A DNA stretch of 23,812 nt. Source: a virus. The stretch is taken from positions 1-23,812 of the IMG/VR virus record IMGVR_UViG_3300013101_000097; one strand, given 5' to 3'. Positions 8,716 to 17,603 of this stretch are shown piece after piece (the first letter of the stretch is position 1; each line of letters begins with the position of its first letter). Made by a program: the position numbers and the translations under genes. Under the pieces are notes generated by a model. That model saw only the letters and a list, made by a program, of their open reading frames with translations. It ran no database searches and was not told the origin of the DNA.

Positions 8716-9035
8716 TGGAAGTCCTATTTAATAATTTCGCCTCAGGGGTATTATTGTTAGATATTCTGGCAGGTGATACCGAGATATCCCTAGATGTTGG
8801 TGAAGGGGTATTCTTCCCTGACCCTATTGAGGGTGTTGAGTACTGCGTGCTGGTTATTGAAGACATCAGTGGCATCAAAGAAGTGGTCCACATGACTAAG
8901 CGTACCGGTGATGTTCTGACCTGTACCCGGGCTCAGGAAGGGACCATAGCTCAGGGGTATTCAGCTGGCTCCCGCATAGAGCTTCGTGCTACTGCTGGAT
9001 TTTTCACTGATTTCGTGGACGCCGGGACGTACTAA
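8715..9035 (+). CDS. Stand-alone copy of a fibre N-terminal domain, 106 aa
   Basis: The whole protein aligns by eye with residues 1-100 of the large fibre encoded immediately downstream. Shared features are an N-terminal short beta region with Leu pairs (VLLLDILAGDTEISL against SLLTTAVGIGDASIEV), a Pro-containing turn, then Glu-Val-Val before a Gly-(D/N)-Val-Leu-Thr strand and an Arg-x-x-x-Gly-Thr-x-Ala-Gln block, ending with an (F/L)-x-DF segment. It therefore looks like a duplicated attachment domain, either an adaptor for a fibre or a spacer in the baseplate ring. TAATG overlaps link it to both neighbours. Confidence 0.6.
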   Translation: MEVLFNNFASGVLLLDILAGDTEISLDVGEGVFFPDPIEGVEYCVLVIEDISGIKEVVHMTKRTGDVLTCTRAQEGTIAQGYSAGSRIELRATAGFFTDFVDAGTY

Positions 9036-12000
9036 TGGGTGATCTTCAGTTTGCCAATAAGGGAACTAGCTTACTAACCACTGCAGTTGGTATAGGTGAT
9101 GCATCGATCGAGGTTGATGATGCGTCTTCGTACCCACCAATAACAGGCACTCAGTACTATTATCTGGTGCTCGAAGCTCTGGACCTGACCCATTTCGAAG
9201 TGGTTAAAGTCACTGCAGTTGCTGGTAATGTCTTGACAGTAGATCGAGGTATCGGCGGGACACTGGCGCAGGCTTTTGATGCTGGGGACCGCGCTGAGAA
9301 TCGTGTCACCAAAACCACACTGGATGATTTTCTACCAGCTGAGAATTGGCAGGATTTTTTGGCTGGTTATGCTGACAATTCAACTCACGTAGACTATGCC
9401 GGTGATTTGGATGACATAGTCGTCAACTCGGTCTATAACATTAACTCTGGTGTTGTCACTAATGCTCCGGTAGATATGTCAGATAGGGGCTTTATTGTCA
9501 GTTACATCAACACTGACAACCCCGCCAATATCACACAGGTTATATATGGGTTACGCGACCTTGACTCATATAAGATGTGGATGCGGCATAAAAGCGGGGG
9601 TGTCTGGGGCGCGTGGAAACTGACTGTGGGGGACCTGCATAACGCATTAGCCGGTCGCGCAGATGCCGAGGCACACCCTTCGACTGCTATATCTTTCGAG
9701 GATTCTGTTGTTGGTTCTGGCGAAGATAACCTGCAGGACTTGATCGATAATTTTCTCGACCCGCAGATAGGTCTCCGAGAGACTGCTGCCTCAGGTGTCC
9801 TAGAGGGTGGCGGCCTTACAATGGCTAGCTCTACGACTATTGACATCGCTTCAGGTGCAGGTGAGATTGTAGATGGATACACAGACCGGAGAGCCCCTAC
9901 ACGGATAAACATTTCGTGGGCTCAGAGCCTTGGCTTTACTATCAGTATGCCCAGTATCGTAGGCGTGGCATATATCTATGTTGACAACACTGGGACGATT
10001 TTCCAGCAGGCTGGGCAGCTGACACCGAGCCAGAGGCGAACCAATATCCAGCTTGGCTTCGTTGGTTATGAAAATGGCGCAATTTCTGCAGCGTATGATG
10101 CCCCTATCCTGTCAAATGAAGTCGGTAATTCGTTATATGACTGGATGGAATTCGTGCCAACTGCTGACCGCGCCAAGGGGATGGGGATTAATTCAGTCAC
10201 TGGGGCTTTGTCTATATGGGGTGATTCTGGTGAGCTTTTATCTCACGGCGCCAATGTCTCAGTCAGTCTGACCAACCCGAACATAAAGCAATTCCCCGCT
10301 ATTGGTGACGTCTCAACACCAGAGCCTTTCACGGTCATTTTTTCCGATGGTACGGCTTACCTCGCGGCCCAGACTGTGATGCCAGATGTAATCGAAGTAT
10401 CCCCCGGGGTTACTGATGCACTGACTGGCAATAACGCGGCTATCCATTATGTTTACCGGACCTTCGGAAATGAGCTTATTCTTCAGTTGGGGCAGACCGA
10501 ATATAACTCAGCCCAGATTGCGCGGGACTCGTTGGAAGTAGACCGGGTTTCGTATAATTATTTCACGGGTAACAAGCATGTATTGTTATCAGCGCAGTCG
10601 TACCACTCGGGGCTCGCATCTGATTACTCCAACCCGAACCAAGCAGGGCTGGTTAGTCTTATCGGCTCGGGAGCAGGCGCATCTGGTGGTGTAGCTGTCT
10701 CCAACTATCTTGACCTGACGGATGTAATATCAACGACTTATATCGGGCAAAAAACAAAGGTCCCGGTGGTCGATGACGCAGAGTCAGGGCTTGAGTTCAT
10801 GTCTCGTATGGACTGGAAGAACCTCTGGATTGCTGGGACCTATGAGGTAGCTCAGGTCGTGCGCGATGGCAGCTGGACTATGGTGGCGAATAAGCAAACC
10901 GAAGACCGGCCAGCCCCCCAAACTTCTGGCGACCCATTTAATATATACGCGGGTACGTTGGTTGATGGGGCTACTCTTGCCAGCCAAGTGATTTTTGGCA
11001 ACCGGTATACTATTACTGATGGTGGATACCTCACAGGCATAAGGATTAATACTGTAGCAGGGAACCACTACACTGTATTTTCTATAAAAGACCCGCTCGG
11101 GACTCCCATAGTCAGCCAGTTGATGGATTTTTTGTCTGATAATACTGGCTGGGTTATGGCCACTATTGACCCAATTGTAGTCGGCAGCGTTACCTTCGAC
11201 CTTGTGGCAATTGTGAGCGAGCCAGACCCGACCCCAACCATTTTTAGTGGTAACTGGGACTATACAACTCCGAATAATACAGGCGTACCCGGAGCTGGTG
11301 TTGTTATTCACGCCTCCAAAGAACCTGAGTCCTTGCAGGTTTCCTATACCGATGATGACGCTGGGGACAGGTCAGTTGCACTCAAGGCTCTGGTTGTTGG
11401 TGACGTTATAGAAAGTGGCAATTTGCGGTGGGCCATTCAGAGTAATACAGACGCTGGTGCCTATGCTACTTTTGGTATATCCCCCGCAGTAGTAGATACT
11501 CCTGACGGTGTCCGTAACTTTAATTTTGAGACGGTGACACCAACACCCATCACCACAGGCGCAGATATTGGCTACTGGGCCTCAAATTATGTGGGGCAGG
11601 TGCAGGGACTGCTTGGCGTGGACGTGGCCTATGCAGATATCGTACCCAACGATAATGCCTATGGTACTGATATCGTGGTGCAACGCGCCACAATGTCCCC
11701 TGACTGGGATATCCTTGCTGTCTATGGTGGTAGCGCCAGTGGTGGCTCAGGGGGCGCAGGAGGGCTCACATGGAGCTTCCCGATAACTGATTTTACTGCT
11801 GATACCAGTAATGCCTATGTGTTTCCGGCTGGTACTATAACGCAGGTGACTTTACCGGCAGATGCTGCAGTAGGCGACCAGATTATCCTTGCTGATTTGG
11901 GTGACACATGGGATGGGACAATCAATGTAGATGGTAACGGCAATACCATTGAGGGGCTTGCCGATGTCGATCTTCAGGTTGCCGGTGGCGTGCTGGAGAT

Positions 12001-12649
12001 TGTCTTCAGTGAGACTGAGTGGGAAATAGTTGGCTTGGTTAGTGGTGTCTACCGGGGTGCGACTCCACCGGCAGCGCCTCAGGCCGTTGGTCGTTGGTGG
12101 GATAACAATACAGGCCGCGCATATATCTGGTACGACGATGGTGACAGCAAGCAGTGGGTCGAGGAAGACCCGCCTGTTGCACCTGCTAGCGGGGGTGTTA
12201 TTGGTGAAGTCAAGATGTGGCCTACTACTGCCATTCCAGCGTTCCATCTTCTCTGTGACGGGTCCTCTATTAGCCGTGCTACCTACCCTAGCCTGTTCGC
12301 GGTGCTTGGTGTCGAGTATGGGAGCCTAGATGGCAATACCTTCAACCTGCCGGATTATCGTGGTACGTTCTTACGTGGTACAGATAATGGTGTAGGTGTC
12401 GATCCTGATGCAGCTACCCGCACGGATCGTGGCGATGGCACCACAGGTGATGCGGTCGGTACAAAGCAAACCCACAAGACAGAAGAACACACGCACACGA
12501 TTGCGAATGATAGTAAGTCTGTCGGTACTGGTTCCAGTGCGTACAGACTACGGCAACAACAGACTGGCTCTGTGATTTCTCAAGTTGCTGGGGAAACCCG
12601 CCCGGTCAACACCAACATAAACTTCATCATCTACACAGGGGTAGCATAA
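9035..12649 (+). CDS. Large tail fibre with C-terminal collar domain, 1204 aa
   Basis: This is the largest complete gene in the window and likely a receptor-binding trimeric fibre. Residues 1-100 are the attachment domain shared with the upstream gene. Residues about 122-200 resemble pyocin/fibre knob domains (GDLDDIVVNSVYNI up to GGVWGAWKL). About 202-225 is an AEAHPSTAIS segment common in fibre shafts. Middle residues are long beta-rich sequence with Gly/Asp turns and no catalytic motif that I can see. Residues about 1005-1045 (TPPAAPQAVGRWWDNNTGRAYIW) form a short linker module found before collar domains. From about 1054 to the end lies a phage tail collar domain, with LLCDGSSISRATYPSLF, FNLPDYRGTFLRG and ETRPVNTN. 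An HxH motif (H1152, H1154) could bind a metal at the trimer axis. Confidence 0.78.
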   Translation: MGDLQFANKGTSLLTTAVGIGDASIEVDDASSYPPITGTQYYYLVLEALDLTHFEVVKVTAVAGNVLTVDRGIGGTLAQAFDAGDRAENRVTKTTLDDFLPAENWQDFLAGYADNSTHVDYAGDLDDIVVNSVYNINSGVVTNAPVDMSDRGFIVSYINTDNPANITQVIYGLRDLDSYKMWMRHKSGGVWGAWKLTVGDLHNALAGRADAEAHPSTAISFEDSVVGSGEDNLQDLIDNFLDPQIGLRETAASGVLEGGGLTMASSTTIDIASGAGEIVDGYTDRRAPTRINISWAQSLGFTISMPSIVGVAYIYVDNTGTIFQQAGQLTPSQRRTNIQLGFVGYENGAISAAYDAPILSNEVGNSLYDWMEFVPTADRAKGMGINSVTGALSIWGDSGELLSHGANVSVSLTNPNIKQFPAIGDVSTPEPFTVIFSDGTAYLAAQTVMPDVIEVSPGVTDALTGNNAAIHYVYRTFGNELILQLGQTEYNSAQIARDSLEVDRVSYNYFTGNKHVLLSAQSYHSGLASDYSNPNQAGLVSLIGSGAGASGGVAVSNYLDLTDVISTTYIGQKTKVPVVDDAESGLEFMSRMDWKNLWIAGTYEVAQVVRDGSWTMVANKQTEDRPAPQTSGDPFNIYAGTLVDGATLASQVIFGNRYTITDGGYLTGIRINTVAGNHYTVFSIKDPLGTPIVSQLMDFLSDNTGWVMATIDPIVVGSVTFDLVAIVSEPDPTPTIFSGNWDYTTPNNTGVPGAGVVIHASKEPESLQVSYTDDDAGDRSVALKALVVGDVIESGNLRWAIQSNTDAGAYATFGISPAVVDTPDGVRNFNFETVTPTPITTGADIGYWASNYVGQVQGLLGVDVAYADIVPNDNAYGTDIVVQRATMSPDWDILAVYGGSASGGSGGAGGLTWSFPITDFTADTSNAYVFPAGTITQVTLPADAAVGDQIILADLGDTWDGTINVDGNGNTIEGLADVDLQVAGGVLEIVFSETEWEIVGLVSGVYRGATPPAAPQAVGRWWDNNTGRAYIWYDDGDSKQWVEEDPPVAPASGGVIGEVKMWPTTAIPAFHLLCDGSSISRATYPSLFAVLGVEYGSLDGNTFNLPDYRGTFLRGTDNGVGVDPDAATRTDRGDGTTGDAVGTKQTHKTEEHTHTIANDSKSVGTGSSAYRLRQQQTGSVISQVAGETRPVNTNINFIIYTGVA
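12398..12468 (+). repeat. Collar block copy 1 (71 bp)
   Basis: First copy of a 71-bp stretch encoding DPDAATRTDRGDG..GTKQ in the fibre collar. It matches the copy at 12985-13055 at 67 of 71 positions by my count, including many third codon positions. Confidence 0.7.
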
Positions 12650-13725
12650 TGTTAAATTTTCCCAACGCCCCCGTCGACGGTGACCTGAGCAGCCAGCCTA
12701 ACGGTGTCACCTATCAGTGGTCTGCTACCAATGAACGCTGGACTTCTGTCGGCTCCCTTGATGGTAACAATGCTGTCGTGGCTGTCGGTGCCATCTTCCC
12801 CTTTGCTGCTGCCCCGCAAGATGCGACATGGTTGCGATGCAACGGGCAAGCGGTCAGTCGTGACGCCTACAAGCACCTGTTCAACTTCATCGGTGTCATG
12901 TATGGCAACGGTGATGGCAGCACCACGTTCAACCTCCCCGACTATCGCGGCACGTTCCTACGTGACGTTGACGATGGTGCGGCTGTCGATCCTGATGCCG
13001 CTACCCGCACGGATCGTGGCGATGGCGTCACAGGTGATGAGGTCGGTACAAAGCAGGCTGACGAGTTTGAGAGTCACTCCCATACGATGAATGTGGATGC
13101 GTCAACTGCTGCCTCTGGCGGCTCTGCCCGTGCTGGTGTGTTGGCGAATACCACTGGCCTGACAGGCGGCAACGAAACCCGCCCTGTCAACACCTACGCT
13201 CTGCATTACATCTACAGTGGGTTGAACCTGACCGTTGCTCCCACACCCAATGTCTTATACACCGAAGGCGTGTTTGACGGAGTAAACAGACTTGATATGC
13301 TAAGTCCGTTACTGGTGTCTGTGAAGCGGATCATTATCGGGTTTGATGACGTGCGACAAGCCGATAGCAGCAATATGCGTATCCGCTTTTCGCTAGCTGG
13401 TGTTGAGTACACGTCTGATTATCAGACTGTCTGCGCGCGCACCCGTATTGACGGGGTAGCTAACAGCGGCGATTCTGCAGGTGGCCATTTTATTGTTACA
13501 GTAACGTCAACTGCTGCGCTCCTTAATGGCAGTGTTACACTTGATCGTGTCAGTGATAATAAGTGGTCTTGTAATGGCTTACTGGTACGATATGAAACTA
13601 GCGAATTTGTGCAGTCTATCGCAGGCATGTGGAACAACCCCGGTAATGGCGAGATTGATGGCTTCGCTGTTGGTGGCTCAGGCCAAAACAATTCAGGCAC
13701 TTTGCGGGTTCGCTGGGAAGGATAA
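12649..13725 (+). CDS. Second collar-domain tail protein with C-terminal beta domain, 358 aa
   Basis: Start ATG 12649 overlaps the fibre stop (TAATG). Residues 1-35 (NFPNAPVDGDLSSQPNGVTYQW) form a short N-terminal module common at the start of fibre proteins. Residues about 45-190 are a collar domain with LRCNGQAVSRDAY, FNLPDYRGTFLRD, DPDAATRTDRGDG, an HSH motif at 143-145 and ETRPVNTY. Residues about 195-358 are an extra beta-sandwich-like domain (LTVAPTPNVLYTEGVF to GTLRVRWEG) that the other two collar proteins lack and that may contact the receptor. The lipoprotein gene follows after the stop with no gap. Confidence 0.75.
   Translation: MLNFPNAPVDGDLSSQPNGVTYQWSATNERWTSVGSLDGNNAVVAVGAIFPFAAAPQDATWLRCNGQAVSRDAYKHLFNFIGVMYGNGDGSTTFNLPDYRGTFLRDVDDGAAVDPDAATRTDRGDGVTGDEVGTKQADEFESHSHTMNVDASTAASGGSARAGVLANTTGLTGGNETRPVNTYALHYIYSGLNLTVAPTPNVLYTEGVFDGVNRLDMLSPLLVSVKRIIIGFDDVRQADSSNMRIRFSLAGVEYTSDYQTVCARTRIDGVANSGDSAGGHFIVTVTSTAALLNGSVTLDRVSDNKWSCNGLLVRYETSEFVQSIAGMWNNPGNGEIDGFAVGGSGQNNSGTLRVRWEG
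12985..13055 (+). repeat. Collar block copy 2 (71 bp)
   Basis: Second copy of the 71-bp block, 67/71 identical to copy 1 and 59/71 to copy 3 by my count. The two close copies lie 587 bases apart in adjacent genes. Confidence 0.7.
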
Positions 13726-13887
13726 ATGAAGTCAACCGCGTGCATCATGCTGGCCTCCATCGTGTTATTTATGATCACAGCATGTACCATTATCTTCGGT
13801 GATAGTAACACTGTGAAAACTGAGGAAGATGTTGGTCTAATCAGGATTCAGCCCAAAGCTGAAGGGTCAGAAACAGATAAAGATTAG
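13726..13887 (+). CDS. Small lipoprotein, possible superinfection-exclusion factor, 53 aa
   Basis: ATG 13726 follows the stop of the second collar gene directly, with GAAGGA at 13717-13722 as SD. The product starts MKSTACIM, then a hydrophobic core, then the lipobox I-T-A-C with Cys20. The +2 residue is Thr, which in Gram-negative cells does not retain a lipoprotein in the inner membrane, so sorting to the outer membrane is predicted. The 34-residue mature part starts CTIIFGDSNTV and is acidic and hydrophilic. Small lipoproteins next to receptor-binding genes include T5 Llp, which blocks the phage receptor after infection. That role here is inference from location and signal type; no sequence match is claimed. 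A lysis (Rz1-like) role is less likely because no Rz or holin is nearby. Confidence 0.72.
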   Translation: MKSTACIMLASIVLFMITACTIIFGDSNTVKTEEDVGLIRIQPKAEGSETDKD

Positions 13888-13900
13888 CGGTATATACCGC
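13887..13900. repeat. Perfect 14-bp palindrome before the third collar gene
   Basis: GCGGTATATACCGC reads identically on both strands. Its first G is the last base of the lipoprotein stop TAG, and it ends two bases before the GGAG SD (13903-13906) of the gene at 13915. It could be an operator half or a small hairpin affecting the SD. The 27-base gap holds nothing else. Confidence 0.6.
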
Positions 13901-13914
13901 ACGGAGAATTAAAA

Positions 13915-15000
13915 ATGTCAGTTCGTACAAAGAGTCTCAGGAGCAGTTCCCCCGGCATCCGGCCTACCCCCGGCAGTCGTGATGTTGGTGAACTTTATAC
14001 CAACTATCCTGATGGCCAGTTGGGTGTTATCGACACAAATCAAGACCCACAAGACCTGATTGCAGTTCGGTACTTTTCCGCACTGGCGGCATATGTTGTC
14101 GATGATGTTATTGTAAACGTGCTGGATAATACGATGTACCGGTGCATTCAGGACAATGGCCCCGGTGCGTTTACCCCTACTGACTGGACCACTGCTGCTG
14201 ATTCTTTCGTGCAGCGACTGAAAGGTTACGAGACCAATGGATTGCATTCTGCATTTACTGGTGACCTGAATACGCTTTTGCACAACAGCACTTATACAAT
14301 CATTGCAAGCGGGGTTACTAATGACCCTGCCGAGTTCTCCACAATAGGCTTTATCACTACTAATTTATGGACAGCTACCTCAGCTGCCATCCAGACACTT
14401 ACTGGTATGACAGGTGCAGACCAAGGTCGTGTGTGGTTTCGCACGCGTGATGGCAGTGTGTGGGGTAATTGGTTTATCCCCAATGACCTTAGTATGACTG
14501 CAGCAGTCCAATCTTTCGCTGTTCCCCCCAACAACGTAGGTTCGATCTGGCTGCTGTGTGATGGCCAAGCTGTGAGTCGGGATGATTACGCAGATTTATT
14601 CCTACTCCTTGATGTTATATATGGTAATGGTGATGGGACGACTACGTTCAATATCCCTAACTACCAAGGCCAGTTTTTGAGAGGTCAGGACCAAGGGGCG
14701 GGTGTTGATCCTGATGCCGGGACACGTACTGACCGTGGTGATGGTGTTACAGGTGATGAAGTCGGCACAAAGCAGGAGGGTGGTAATCTGTCACATGACC
14801 ACGGAATAACGGACCCGGGGCATACTCATTCCAATGGTAACAAGGACGGTTCTTCAGTCCGCAACAGTGGGACGGATCGCTGGAGTAGAGCGAATGTCGG
14901 AACCTCGGTAACTGGGATTAGTATTAAGGCTCGCGGCGGCAACGAGGCACGCCCGACTAATGTCAATGTCCTGTATTACATCAACACTGGCAGAGTCTAA
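13915..15000 (+). CDS. Third collar-domain tail protein, 361 aa
   Basis: ATG 13915 has a good SD (GGAG at 13903-13906). Residues 1-60 are a distinct N-terminal arm (SSPGIRPTPGSRDVGELY). Residues about 115-185 resemble a knob domain (TGDLNTLLHNSTYTII to GSVWGNWF), as in the large fibre. Residues about 205-361 form a collar domain with LLCDGQAVSRDDY, FNIPNYQGQFLRG, DPDAGTRTDRGDG and NEARPTNV. Two HxH pairs are visible, H294/H296 (HDH) and H303/H305 (HTH), one more than in the other two collar proteins. A short fibre or adhesin role is likely. It overlaps the nozzle start by TAATG. Confidence 0.75.
   Translation: MSVRTKSLRSSSPGIRPTPGSRDVGELYTNYPDGQLGVIDTNQDPQDLIAVRYFSALAAYVVDDVIVNVLDNTMYRCIQDNGPGAFTPTDWTTAADSFVQRLKGYETNGLHSAFTGDLNTLLHNSTYTIIASGVTNDPAEFSTIGFITTNLWTATSAAIQTLTGMTGADQGRVWFRTRDGSVWGNWFIPNDLSMTAAVQSFAVPPNNVGSIWLLCDGQAVSRDDYADLFLLLDVIYGNGDGTTTFNIPNYQGQFLRGQDQGAGVDPDAGTRTDRGDGVTGDEVGTKQEGGNLSHDHGITDPGHTHSNGNKDGSSVRNSGTDRWSRANVGTSVTGISIKARGGNEARPTNVNVLYYINTGRV
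14704..14774 (+). repeat. Collar block copy 3 (71 bp)
   Basis: Third and more diverged copy of the 71-bp block, 59/71 identical to copy 2 by my count, with most differences at wobble positions. It encodes DPDAGTRTDRGDGVTGDEVGTKQ. Confidence 0.65.
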
Positions 15001-16838
15001 TGACAGGTTCACGCGTCAGGATTGAAAACTTCGCAGGGATGGTCCCTAAGCGAAGTAATCGCCTGCTTGGTAACTCACAAGCGCGTGAGGCCAATAACGC
15101 ACGCCTGTCGTCAGGTGAGATTCGTGGATTCCGAGACTGGTCCGCTCTCCATAATTTCAATGACTCAGCTATCCAGAAGGCTTACCGACTCCCTGACCCC
15201 GGGTCCCCCGGTGGGTTCCTTTGGGTAGGCTTCACAAGCCCCCTGATTACGCTGTTCCCGGGGCCTCTACTGAATGATGCCTATGACCGGTACTACAAGT
15301 TTGGTGACGGTAGGCCGCAATACAACACGCTGGAGCGCCTACGCAATGGTGACCCCTACTACTGGCTCGGAGTCCCAGCGCCTGTACTCCCCGGTGCCTT
15401 GGCGGCTGCTGGCGGCGCGGCCTTGGATGAAGAGCGGTATTATGTCTACACTCTGGTGTCTGAATATGGTGAAGAGGGTCAGCCGTCTATACCAGTGACG
15501 GATACAGGTAAGGAAGACGGGACATGGACCCTCAGTGGTATGGACGCCTCAGTACCAAACCCTGCTGAACAGCCAATTACTCACAAAAATATCTACCGCA
15601 CGGTGGCAGGGTTTACAACTTCTGAATTTTTCTTCGTGGCGCAGATACCACTGGCTCAGGATTCGTATGCTGACAGTGTTGGCTCAGACATAGTTGCGCG
15701 GAATAATATCCTCGCCTCTGGTAGTTGGGCTGAACCACCTGTAGATATTGAGGGCGCGGTCGTAATGCCAAATGGATTCTTTCTGGCATGGTCAGGGCGG
15801 GATATCCACTTTAGCGAGACCTATCGCCCACATGCATGGCCTGCTGCCTATGACCTGAGTACTCAGTATAAAATCATCGGTGCAGGTGTGTTTGGGCAGT
15901 CAGCAGGTATCGTTACCTCTGGCCATCCTTATTTCGCTACGGGCACTGCACCTGAAAATACCACCCTGACTAAAAATAATTCAGCTGAGCCGGGGCTGTC
16001 CCCCCTGTCAATTGTCCCTCTGCCCTATGGCGTCTTGTATGCCAGCCAGAATGGTCTGACCCTTATGAGTGCCAAAGGCGTCACATCAGCGACCAGTGGC
16101 ATAATCACCAAGGATGAATGGCTGAATAATTACAGCCCAGAAACTCTGGTGGCTGCACAGTATGAGGAACAATATCTCGGGTTTTTTACTGAGAATCAGG
16201 GCATTGCTATTAACCCTTCAGAGCCACAGGAGTCATTCATCCAGTTCGATGCATTCAACCGTATAGATATGGTGCAAACTGACGAGCAGACTGGTGAGCT
16301 TTATGTTATTCGAGCTGGTGTAGTATATTTGTGGGATGACCCAGCGCAACAGCGAGTAGCGTATAAGTGGAGGTCCAAAACTTTCTATTTTGCGAAGCCT
16401 TGTAACATGGGTGCAGCAGTTGTTGATATGGAACCACTGGCTGATATTATCGAGGACCTTGAGACGGTAGTAGCAGAGGCACGCGCATACAATACTGAAC
16501 GCATCAAGACTCGCCTGCAGCCAATTGCGACAGCAGCTATGGGTAGCTCTTATGTTGAGCCAATGCCACCACCTTTTGATGAAATTCCACAAAACCGGAT
16601 GTCGATCGGTGGTTCACCACTGCTTGATCTATCCCAGCTAATGGCGCGTAATTCAGACGTGCGGTTTACTGTATATGTCGATGGTGAGGTAGTGTTCTCA
16701 GAACAGGTCAGTGACAAAAAAATGTTCAAGCTGCCCTCTGGATTCAAGAATGATATCTGGGAGTTTGAGGTCTCTGGGAGGCGTACCATATTCTCAATCA
16801 CTGTGGCGGAGACTGCTAGGGGATTAGCAGATGTCTAG
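15000..16838 (+). CDS. Tail nozzle protein / tail tubular protein B-like, 612 aa
   Basis: This protein is typical of podoviral nozzles, which form the distal tail tube and hold the genome in. Residues 1-45 show NFAGMVPKRSNRLL then EANNARLSSGEIRGF. Residues about 115-165 have YWLGVPAPV and YYVYTLVSEYGEEGQPS. About 195-225 has KNIYRTVAGFTTSEFFFVAQIPL. About 250-285 has EGAVVMPNGFFLAWSGRDIHFSETYRPHAWPAAYDL, a well-known nozzle-type segment. The remainder is beta-propeller-like repeats ending with a jellyroll-like domain. Its distance from the tube-A gene, with fibres between, departs from the T7 order. It overlaps the next gene by eight bases. Confidence 0.78.
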   Translation: MTGSRVRIENFAGMVPKRSNRLLGNSQAREANNARLSSGEIRGFRDWSALHNFNDSAIQKAYRLPDPGSPGGFLWVGFTSPLITLFPGPLLNDAYDRYYKFGDGRPQYNTLERLRNGDPYYWLGVPAPVLPGALAAAGGAALDEERYYVYTLVSEYGEEGQPSIPVTDTGKEDGTWTLSGMDASVPNPAEQPITHKNIYRTVAGFTTSEFFFVAQIPLAQDSYADSVGSDIVARNNILASGSWAEPPVDIEGAVVMPNGFFLAWSGRDIHFSETYRPHAWPAAYDLSTQYKIIGAGVFGQSAGIVTSGHPYFATGTAPENTTLTKNNSAEPGLSPLSIVPLPYGVLYASQNGLTLMSAKGVTSATSGIITKDEWLNNYSPETLVAAQYEEQYLGFFTENQGIAINPSEPQESFIQFDAFNRIDMVQTDEQTGELYVIRAGVVYLWDDPAQQRVAYKWRSKTFYFAKPCNMGAAVVDMEPLADIIEDLETVVAEARAYNTERIKTRLQPIATAAMGSSYVEPMPPPFDEIPQNRMSIGGSPLLDLSQLMARNSDVRFTVYVDGEVVFSEQVSDKKMFKLPSGFKNDIWEFEVSGRRTIFSITVAETARGLADV

Positions 16839-17166
16839 GATTAAGAAAGGCCGTTTATTTTATGCTCTGGAACCTCGGGGCCCGGCTCAAGTTGGTGCTC
16901 TCAGTGCAGTATTCGATAAACGAAAGTGGCCAGCTATACCTCAGCCACTGGAAGAGATTGCCTCTATTAACAGCGCAGTCGTAGCGTTGAAGGAGAGGAC
17001 TCAGGTACAGTCACGCGAACAGGGAGATATTCTGTCCAGCTTTGTATCAGTGCAGGACCTGATCAACCTTGGCGTAATCACTGTTGATGGCAAGCTGGCT
17101 ATATCTGCGCTGGAAGCACGAATTGTGGATATCGAGAAACGCCTCGCTGATGCGGCGATACCATAA
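16831..17166 (+). CDS. Small helical tail protein of unknown function, 111 aa
   Basis: ATG 16831 overlaps the nozzle stop by eight bases, with GGGGA near 16820 as SD. The first 35 residues are basic and Pro-rich (RIKKGRLFYALEPRGPAQVG). The rest is helical with heptad-like Leu/Ile/Val spacing (LEEIASINSAVVALKERTQV, ISALEARIVDIEKRLADAA), suggesting a coiled-coil trimer or a needle-like structure. The position directly after the nozzle agrees with a small tail-tip or plug component. No family recognised. Confidence 0.6.
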   Translation: MSRIKKGRLFYALEPRGPAQVGALSAVFDKRKWPAIPQPLEEIASINSAVVALKERTQVQSREQGDILSSFVSVQDLINLGVITVDGKLAISALEARIVDIEKRLADAAIP

Positions 17167-17603
17167 TGCTTATCGTTGAACCTCAAGGTGTCATTAAGCA
17201 CTGGCTCTGTGAGCAGATTGGGTATATCCCTACTGCTGAGTTCATATGCATAGGGCAGTATGACGAGCAGAGGAAAGATTTAACGGGGGCCGTTGGGTAT
17301 GATGGCTGGTCTGAAAATATGGTAGAAATACACGTTGCTTCGGTTCCCGGCGCCTACTGGTTCACCAAGGAATTACTATATAAAAGTTTCCATTTCCCTT
17401 TTGTTGTTCATGGCCGAAATATTGTAGCTTCAAAGGTATCTTCAAGCAACGAAGCTGCGGTAAATTTCAACCGCAAGTTGGGCTTCAAAGAGCAGTGCCG
17501 AATAAAAGGCGGCTCAAGTAGCGGGGATTTGATAATATTCACCATGTACAGAGCCGAGTGTAAGTGGCTCGACATGGACTTACGGTTCAAAGAGGCAGCG
17601 TAA
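17166..17603 (+). CDS. GNAT-like acetyltransferase fold virion protein, 145 aa
   Basis: The protein has the outline of phage GNAT-like proteins of the internal-virion cluster: GQYDEQRKDLTGAVGYDGW, then MVEIHVASVPGAYWFTKELL (motif A region), a basic HGRNIVASKV, and SNEAAVNFNRKLGFKEQCRIKGG with N95 and L105-G106-F107, the usual N-x-x-A-x-x-x-x-x-x-x-GF motif B. T7 gp13 belongs to the same broad fold and sits at the same place in its operon. Whether it acetylates anything is not clear: the canonical acetyl-CoA P-loop (Q/R-x-x-G-x-G/A) is not evident. One-base overlaps (TAATG) link it to both neighbours. Confidence 0.72.
   Translation: MLIVEPQGVIKHWLCEQIGYIPTAEFICIGQYDEQRKDLTGAVGYDGWSENMVEIHVASVPGAYWFTKELLYKSFHFPFVVHGRNIVASKVSSSNEAAVNFNRKLGFKEQCRIKGGSSSGDLIIFTMYRAECKWLDMDLRFKEAA

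Follow-up and report, generated by a model that had tools for sequence, protein, structure and literature searches.

The open reading frame (ORF) at 13726-13887 is a true late-operon gene that encodes a small predicted outer-membrane lipoprotein, and it is an accessory gene in a variable slot bounded by the tail collar genes and the internal virion protein gene. It was found in the window, the whole stretch of DNA analysed here, which is a 23,812-base IMG/VR virus fragment of an uncultured podovirus-like phage. The lipoprotein is an orphan without recognised lysis partners, since the window lacks the lysis cassettes that relatives carry in this slot as well as a recognised endolysin, holin or i-spanin. 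Any functional claim for the lipoprotein would at present be positional only.

Genomic Context of the Lipoprotein Gene

The window carries a podovirus-like structural module. Profile matches identified an SU10-type portal (PF23899), a major capsid protein (phrog_267), a GP4 gp77-type fibre-tail adaptor (PF23148), three collar-domain genes and an internal virion protein (phrog_511). The capsid protein showed 58% identity to those of Rhizobium phages such as RHph_TM3_14A, and many relatives of the phage were present in IMG/VR. The features around the lipoprotein gene were as follows:

9035-12649, plus strand: large collar/fibre gene (PF07484, 5.3e-17)
12649-13725, plus strand: upstream tail collar gene (PF07484, 3.6e-19)
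13718-13722, plus strand: AAGGA Shine-Dalgarno-like site, 3 nt 5' of the lipoprotein ATG and within the 3' end of the upstream collar gene
13726-13887, plus strand: lipoprotein gene, 53 aa, ATG start; signal at residues 1-19, lipobox I-T-A-C, predicted lipidated Cys20
13887-13900, plus strand: perfect palindrome GCGGTATATACCGC, beginning with the final base of the lipoprotein stop codon
13915-15000, plus strand: downstream tail collar gene (PF07484, 4.6e-15), with a conserved N-terminal domain common to relatives
15000-16838, plus strand: internal virion protein (phrog_511), the syntenic anchor

The ATG of the lipoprotein gene abuts the TAA of the collar gene at 12649-13725, and the next collar gene starts at 13915, so that the arrangement given in the preliminary description, directly after one collar stop and before another collar gene, was correct. 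The same description spoke of receptor-binding collar genes. The PF07484 Collar domain was present in all three neighbouring genes, and the abutting collar protein is a putative receptor binder. A related collar domain, 44-50% identical across about 150-180 aa, was found in the three consecutive genes at 9035-15000, and this sequence relationship suggests duplication and tip swapping. The upstream collar gene has a unique C-terminal region of about 168 aa, for which no relative was found in phage or IMG/VR searches and whose single-sequence structure model was unusable (pLDDT 30).

The palindrome GCGGTATATACCGC occurs once in the window and can form a 5-bp hairpin (-7.5 kcal/mol, z -2.0). It was ruled out as a typical terminator, as no T-run follows on the plus strand. 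A promoter search near the lipoprotein gene gave nothing above chance. Amid the virion genes, a 145-aa protein at 17166-17603 matched the acyl-CoA N-acyltransferase family phrog_4470 (3.9e-31), and a gene of the same type was located at the equivalent place in two related contigs (L006 and L007).

Identification of the Lipoprotein

A 53-aa lipoprotein with an ITAC lipobox at Cys20 had been proposed for this ORF, and the consensus rule, Shine-Dalgarno site, codon usage, shuffled sequences and helix model all agreed with it. Its translation, in two consecutive parts, is MKSTACIMLASIVLFMITAC and TIIFGDSNTVKTEEDVGLIRIQPKAEGSETDKD. The protein has a basic N-region (K2), a hydrophobic stretch and the ITAC motif with Cys20, which agrees with the consensus [LVI][ASTVI][GAS]C. 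When the DOLOP-style consensus rule was applied to the ORFs of the window, two matches were obtained, namely ORF 13726-13887 and a TTG-initiated ORF antisense to the large 3' gene in which it lies. In first-order Markov shuffles, lipoprotein-like ORFs on either strand numbered 0.15 per window, and a plus-strand ATG lipoprotein-like ORF of at least 50 aa appeared in none of 40 shuffles. ORF 13726-13887 is the sole credible lipoprotein gene in the 23.8-kb fragment, far beyond chance.

The codon log-likelihood of the ORF was 0.164 per codon, which corresponds to the 38th percentile of the real genes of the window and exceeds all wrong-frame windows. Codon usage, the Shine-Dalgarno site and tight packing indicate that the gene is kept and translated like its neighbours. 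The mature part comprises 34 aa counting Cys20, is largely hydrophilic and ends in SETDKD. A single-sequence AlphaFold model gave a confident signal helix at residues 3-24, while the mature part was of low confidence and unstructured. In E. coli, the Lol rule sends lipoproteins without Asp at position +2 to the outer membrane by default. With Thr at +2, outer-membrane sorting is predicted by the E. coli Lol rule only, which may not be the rule of the host.

Homologue Searches

A tblastn search of 50,697 phage records (E<=10) with the lipoprotein returned only partial and insignificant matches. There was no match in PHROGs at E<=1 or among PDB sequences at E<=10, and PADLOC reported nothing. 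Sub-threshold Pfam/NCBIfam matches to MSP1a and LPXTG-type entries were taken as composition noise. Pattern scans of IMG/VR and GTDB genomes found no homologue; these scans were seeded with short exact peptide patterns, and their reach was limited to close relatives. The lipoprotein was also not found in the 26 related contigs searched. In agreement with the statement that the mature part matches nothing nameable, neither profile libraries nor PDB sequences yielded a credible match. Disruption of the ORF in close relatives had been raised as evidence against a role in exclusion; the gene was absent there, not disrupted.

The lack of a homologue in any search and the absence of the gene from close relatives are consistent with another kind of passenger that takes part in neither adsorption nor lysis, for example a moron or envelope modifier, or a gene in decay. 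Kongari et al. recorded a lipoprotein gene without a linked i-spanin in 31 phage genomes (PMC6139136), which we counted in the same direction, whereas codon usage, the Shine-Dalgarno site and tight packing speak against decay. We give this explanation about the same modest weight as receptor shielding. The weights given to it, to receptor shielding and to an o-spanin, both treated below, are judgements and were not computed.

Genes Located in the Same Slot in Relatives

The closest relatives are five contigs (L003-L007) whose internal virion protein is 71-74% identical to that of the window; L003-L005 are near-identical to one another. Lysis genes fill the intervals flanking the second collar gene in these relatives. 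L007 and L003 carry the second collar gene followed by an M15 peptidase endolysin and a membrane protein, and L006 carries an endolysin (phrog_894, 3e-18) and the homologous membrane protein between the collar genes, which is the slot of the window lipoprotein. In the window, the lipoprotein gene stands alone between the collar genes, and the stop of the second collar gene overlaps the start of the internal virion protein gene, leaving no space there for the lysis cassette of the relatives. The slot is empty in L053 and L054, which encode a GH108 endolysin downstream of the internal virion protein; this position is also empty in the window. The lysis cassette is mobile in the lineage, as contigs differ in whether it precedes or follows the internal virion protein.

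A small lipoprotein is encoded in the same interval in more distant relatives. Counting that of the window, seven of the nine types were located within lysis cassettes:

L020: lipoprotein with GH108
L030: lipoprotein with CHAP
L047 and the near-identical L055/L081: lipoprotein matching phrog_1275, Rz-like spanin (1.6e-13)
L049/L050: endolysin, Rz-like i-spanin and overlapping lipoprotein
L051: lipoprotein with GH108
L063: lipoprotein with GH108 and Rz-like i-spanin
L146: lipoprotein weakly like phrog_456, with M15 peptidase

These lipoproteins look like o-spanins. Location had been offered in support of an exclusion role. The gene does lie beside collar genes, but the same slot houses lysis cassettes with o-spanin-like lipoproteins in relatives, so location alone favours exclusion no more than lysis.

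The two remaining types were those of the window and L029. In L029, a lone 96-aa lipoprotein is encoded at 14347-14637, between the internal virion protein gene and a fibre gene that ends shortly upstream, with no adjacent lysis genes. This fibre gene is 42% identical to part of the large fibre of the window, and the mature lipoprotein contains seven cysteines (six besides the lipidated one). A group of soil phages (L114, L116/L117) shares the N-terminal domains of its collar proteins with the window. Lipoproteins of 62-81 aa are encoded at or shortly after a fibre gene stop in L114 (4924-5169), L116 (5167-5355), L117 (2053-2241) and L107 (10252-10440), all with a cysteine pair in the mature part and without lysis genes alongside. 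The soil-phage lipoproteins look like better candidates for superinfection exclusion than the window protein. Those of L029, L114 and L116/L117 resemble the window lipoprotein in lying directly or nearly directly after a homologous fibre or collar gene without adjacent lysis genes, but they differ in sequence and have several cysteines in the mature part.

Comparison with Spanins

The lipoprotein could be an o-spanin left in an old lysis slot, with its i-spanin partner and the endolysin encoded beyond the fragment; at lysis, such a pair would fuse or disrupt the outer membrane. Like the o-spanins lambda Rz1, T4 PseT.2 and those of L047, L049, L063 and L146, the window protein is a small outer-membrane lipoprotein encoded by a late and co-directional gene, and it shares its genomic slot with the lysis lipoproteins of these four relatives. 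The cassettes of L007, L003 and L006 in the same interval, and the seven cassette-borne types, agree with this origin. The mature size of lambda Rz1 is also close to that of the window lipoprotein. The absence of further cysteines is compatible as well, as cysteine is absent from 124 of 526 o-spanins (PMC6139136).

However, the window protein differs from o-spanins in lacking a partner i-spanin, nearby lysis genes, a proline-rich region and a spanin-family match. The scanned window proteins included no recognisable endolysin, holin or i-spanin, and of the other ORFs that start with a membrane segment, only a borderline tail gene had coding-like composition. The 13.7 kb before the gene and the 9.9 kb after it contained no i-spanin candidate, and the members of known i-/o-spanin pairs are encoded at most about 1 kb apart (PMC6139136), which makes an ordinary spanin half unlikely. 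The protein had no PHROG, Pfam or NCBIfam spanin match, whereas some lipoproteins of relatives did, and it showed no similarity to the spanin lipoproteins of the lineage. Nor does it resemble a u-spanin, as the mature 34 aa contain no C-terminal hydrophobic segment. We consider an o-spanin plausible, but somewhat less likely than receptor shielding. It is highly improbable that the lipoprotein pairs with a hidden i-spanin encoded in another frame of the 3'-terminal collar gene sequence (ORF 13526-13729, 67 aa): this ORF overlaps the lipoprotein start at ATGA and has an N-terminal hydrophobic segment (stretch mean 2.44), but it was rejected because such an ORF arose at that place in 6% of synonymous collar-gene shuffles, it has no Shine-Dalgarno site, its codon likelihood is below zero, and its basic residues lie after and not before the hydrophobic segment, the reverse of a type II i-spanin.

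Comparison with Superinfection-Exclusion Lipoproteins

A self-exclusion role modelled on T5 had been put forward for the lipoprotein, with receptor binder and blocker in one transcript. The T5 llp gene, however, lies on the strand opposite to oad and has its own promoter, and rtp45 is likewise opposite in strand to its J-like gene; a single transcript does not follow from T5. The window lipoprotein gave no BLASTP alignment with Llp, Rtp45 or N15 Cor at E<=100. These three proteins have a cysteine pair in the mature part, whereas the window protein has no cysteine besides Cys20. T5 Llp (77 aa, with a disulphide) is like the window protein a small lipoprotein, encoded beside the receptor-binding gene as the window protein is beside a putative one, but llp is expressed early (PMC9586334), unlike the late window gene. 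Rtp45 is also a small lipoprotein, encoded downstream of its J-like receptor-binding gene, but rtp45 adjoins the membrane protein gene rtp44.

The closest layout was that of N15, in which cor, an established superinfection-exclusion gene with kin in T1, phi80 and HK022, encodes a small lipoprotein and is located between tail fibre genes 21 and 25 on the same strand. N15 Cor differs from the window protein in its cysteine pair, its longer mature part and its total length of 78 aa, and its gene is preceded by two genes for membrane-associated proteins and flanked by annotated putative terminators. The self-exclusion proposal is partly supported: N15 and distant fibre-lipoprotein pairs are precedents for the gene layout, but there was no similarity to Llp, Rtp45 or Cor and no cysteine pair. 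Sequence features place the window protein outside the Llp/Cor group and linkage places it outside the o-spanins; either function may still apply.

Possible Late Shielding of the Receptor

Late shielding of the cell surface or receptor is a tentative reading of the lipoprotein and, of the mechanisms considered, the one we favour; its weight is close to that of a passenger role and somewhat above that of an o-spanin. In this mechanism, the lipoprotein would be made together with the tail fibres, lipidated at Cys20 and then placed on the periplasmic side of the outer membrane, where its short tail would bind or crowd the surface receptor that this phage uses. Progeny would then no longer be captured by infected cells or by the debris left after lysis. 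It would do the same job as T5 Llp or N15 Cor by means of an unrelated peptide. Exclusion proteins of this kind are recognised to shield post-lysis debris (PMC12685063, PMC9586334).

Several observations are consistent with receptor shielding. The gene is real, its position and strand are as in N15, and the window offers no endolysin, holin or i-spanin candidate. Lipoproteins without lysis genes follow homologous fibre genes elsewhere (L029, L114, L116/L117), and superinfection-exclusion lipoproteins are known beside or downstream of receptor-binding loci (PMC9586334, PMC13164509, PMC12685063). Moreover, both the lipoprotein and the C-terminal region peculiar to the upstream collar protein are private to the lineage, as expected if tip and lipoprotein swap together.

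Other observations speak against receptor shielding. Besides the lack of similarity and of the cysteine pair, the mature part is only 34 aa long, where Llp, Cor and Rtp45 have about 57-62, and it is unstructured in the single-sequence model. The opposite strand of llp and rtp45 counts against it too, and so does the early action of llp and T1 Cor (PMC9586334, PMC13164509). The closest relatives use the slot for lysis cassettes, and collar-domain fibres may bind glycans, beyond masking by a periplasmic lipoprotein. A more specific proposal, that the lineage swaps fibre tips together with dedicated, non-homologous and cysteine-free self-exclusion lipoproteins on the same late transcript, for a debris-shielding purpose distinct from Llp and Cor, is improbable.

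Implications

Phage outer-membrane lipoproteins beside tail genes were already known, and the window lipoprotein is a new and private one. A lipoprotein gene adjoining a tail gene is by itself no evidence of exclusion, because lysis cassettes use the same slot in this lineage. An o-spanin role would make the protein an unusually distant member of that class, with relevance to the question of unlinked spanin partners that Kongari et al. put forward (PMC6139136). If the protein is a receptor blocker, superinfection exclusion by lipoproteins would reach beyond siphophages with protein receptors into a podovirus-like lineage, and a fibre gene followed by a lipoprotein gene without lysis genes would be the gene order by which more of them could be found.
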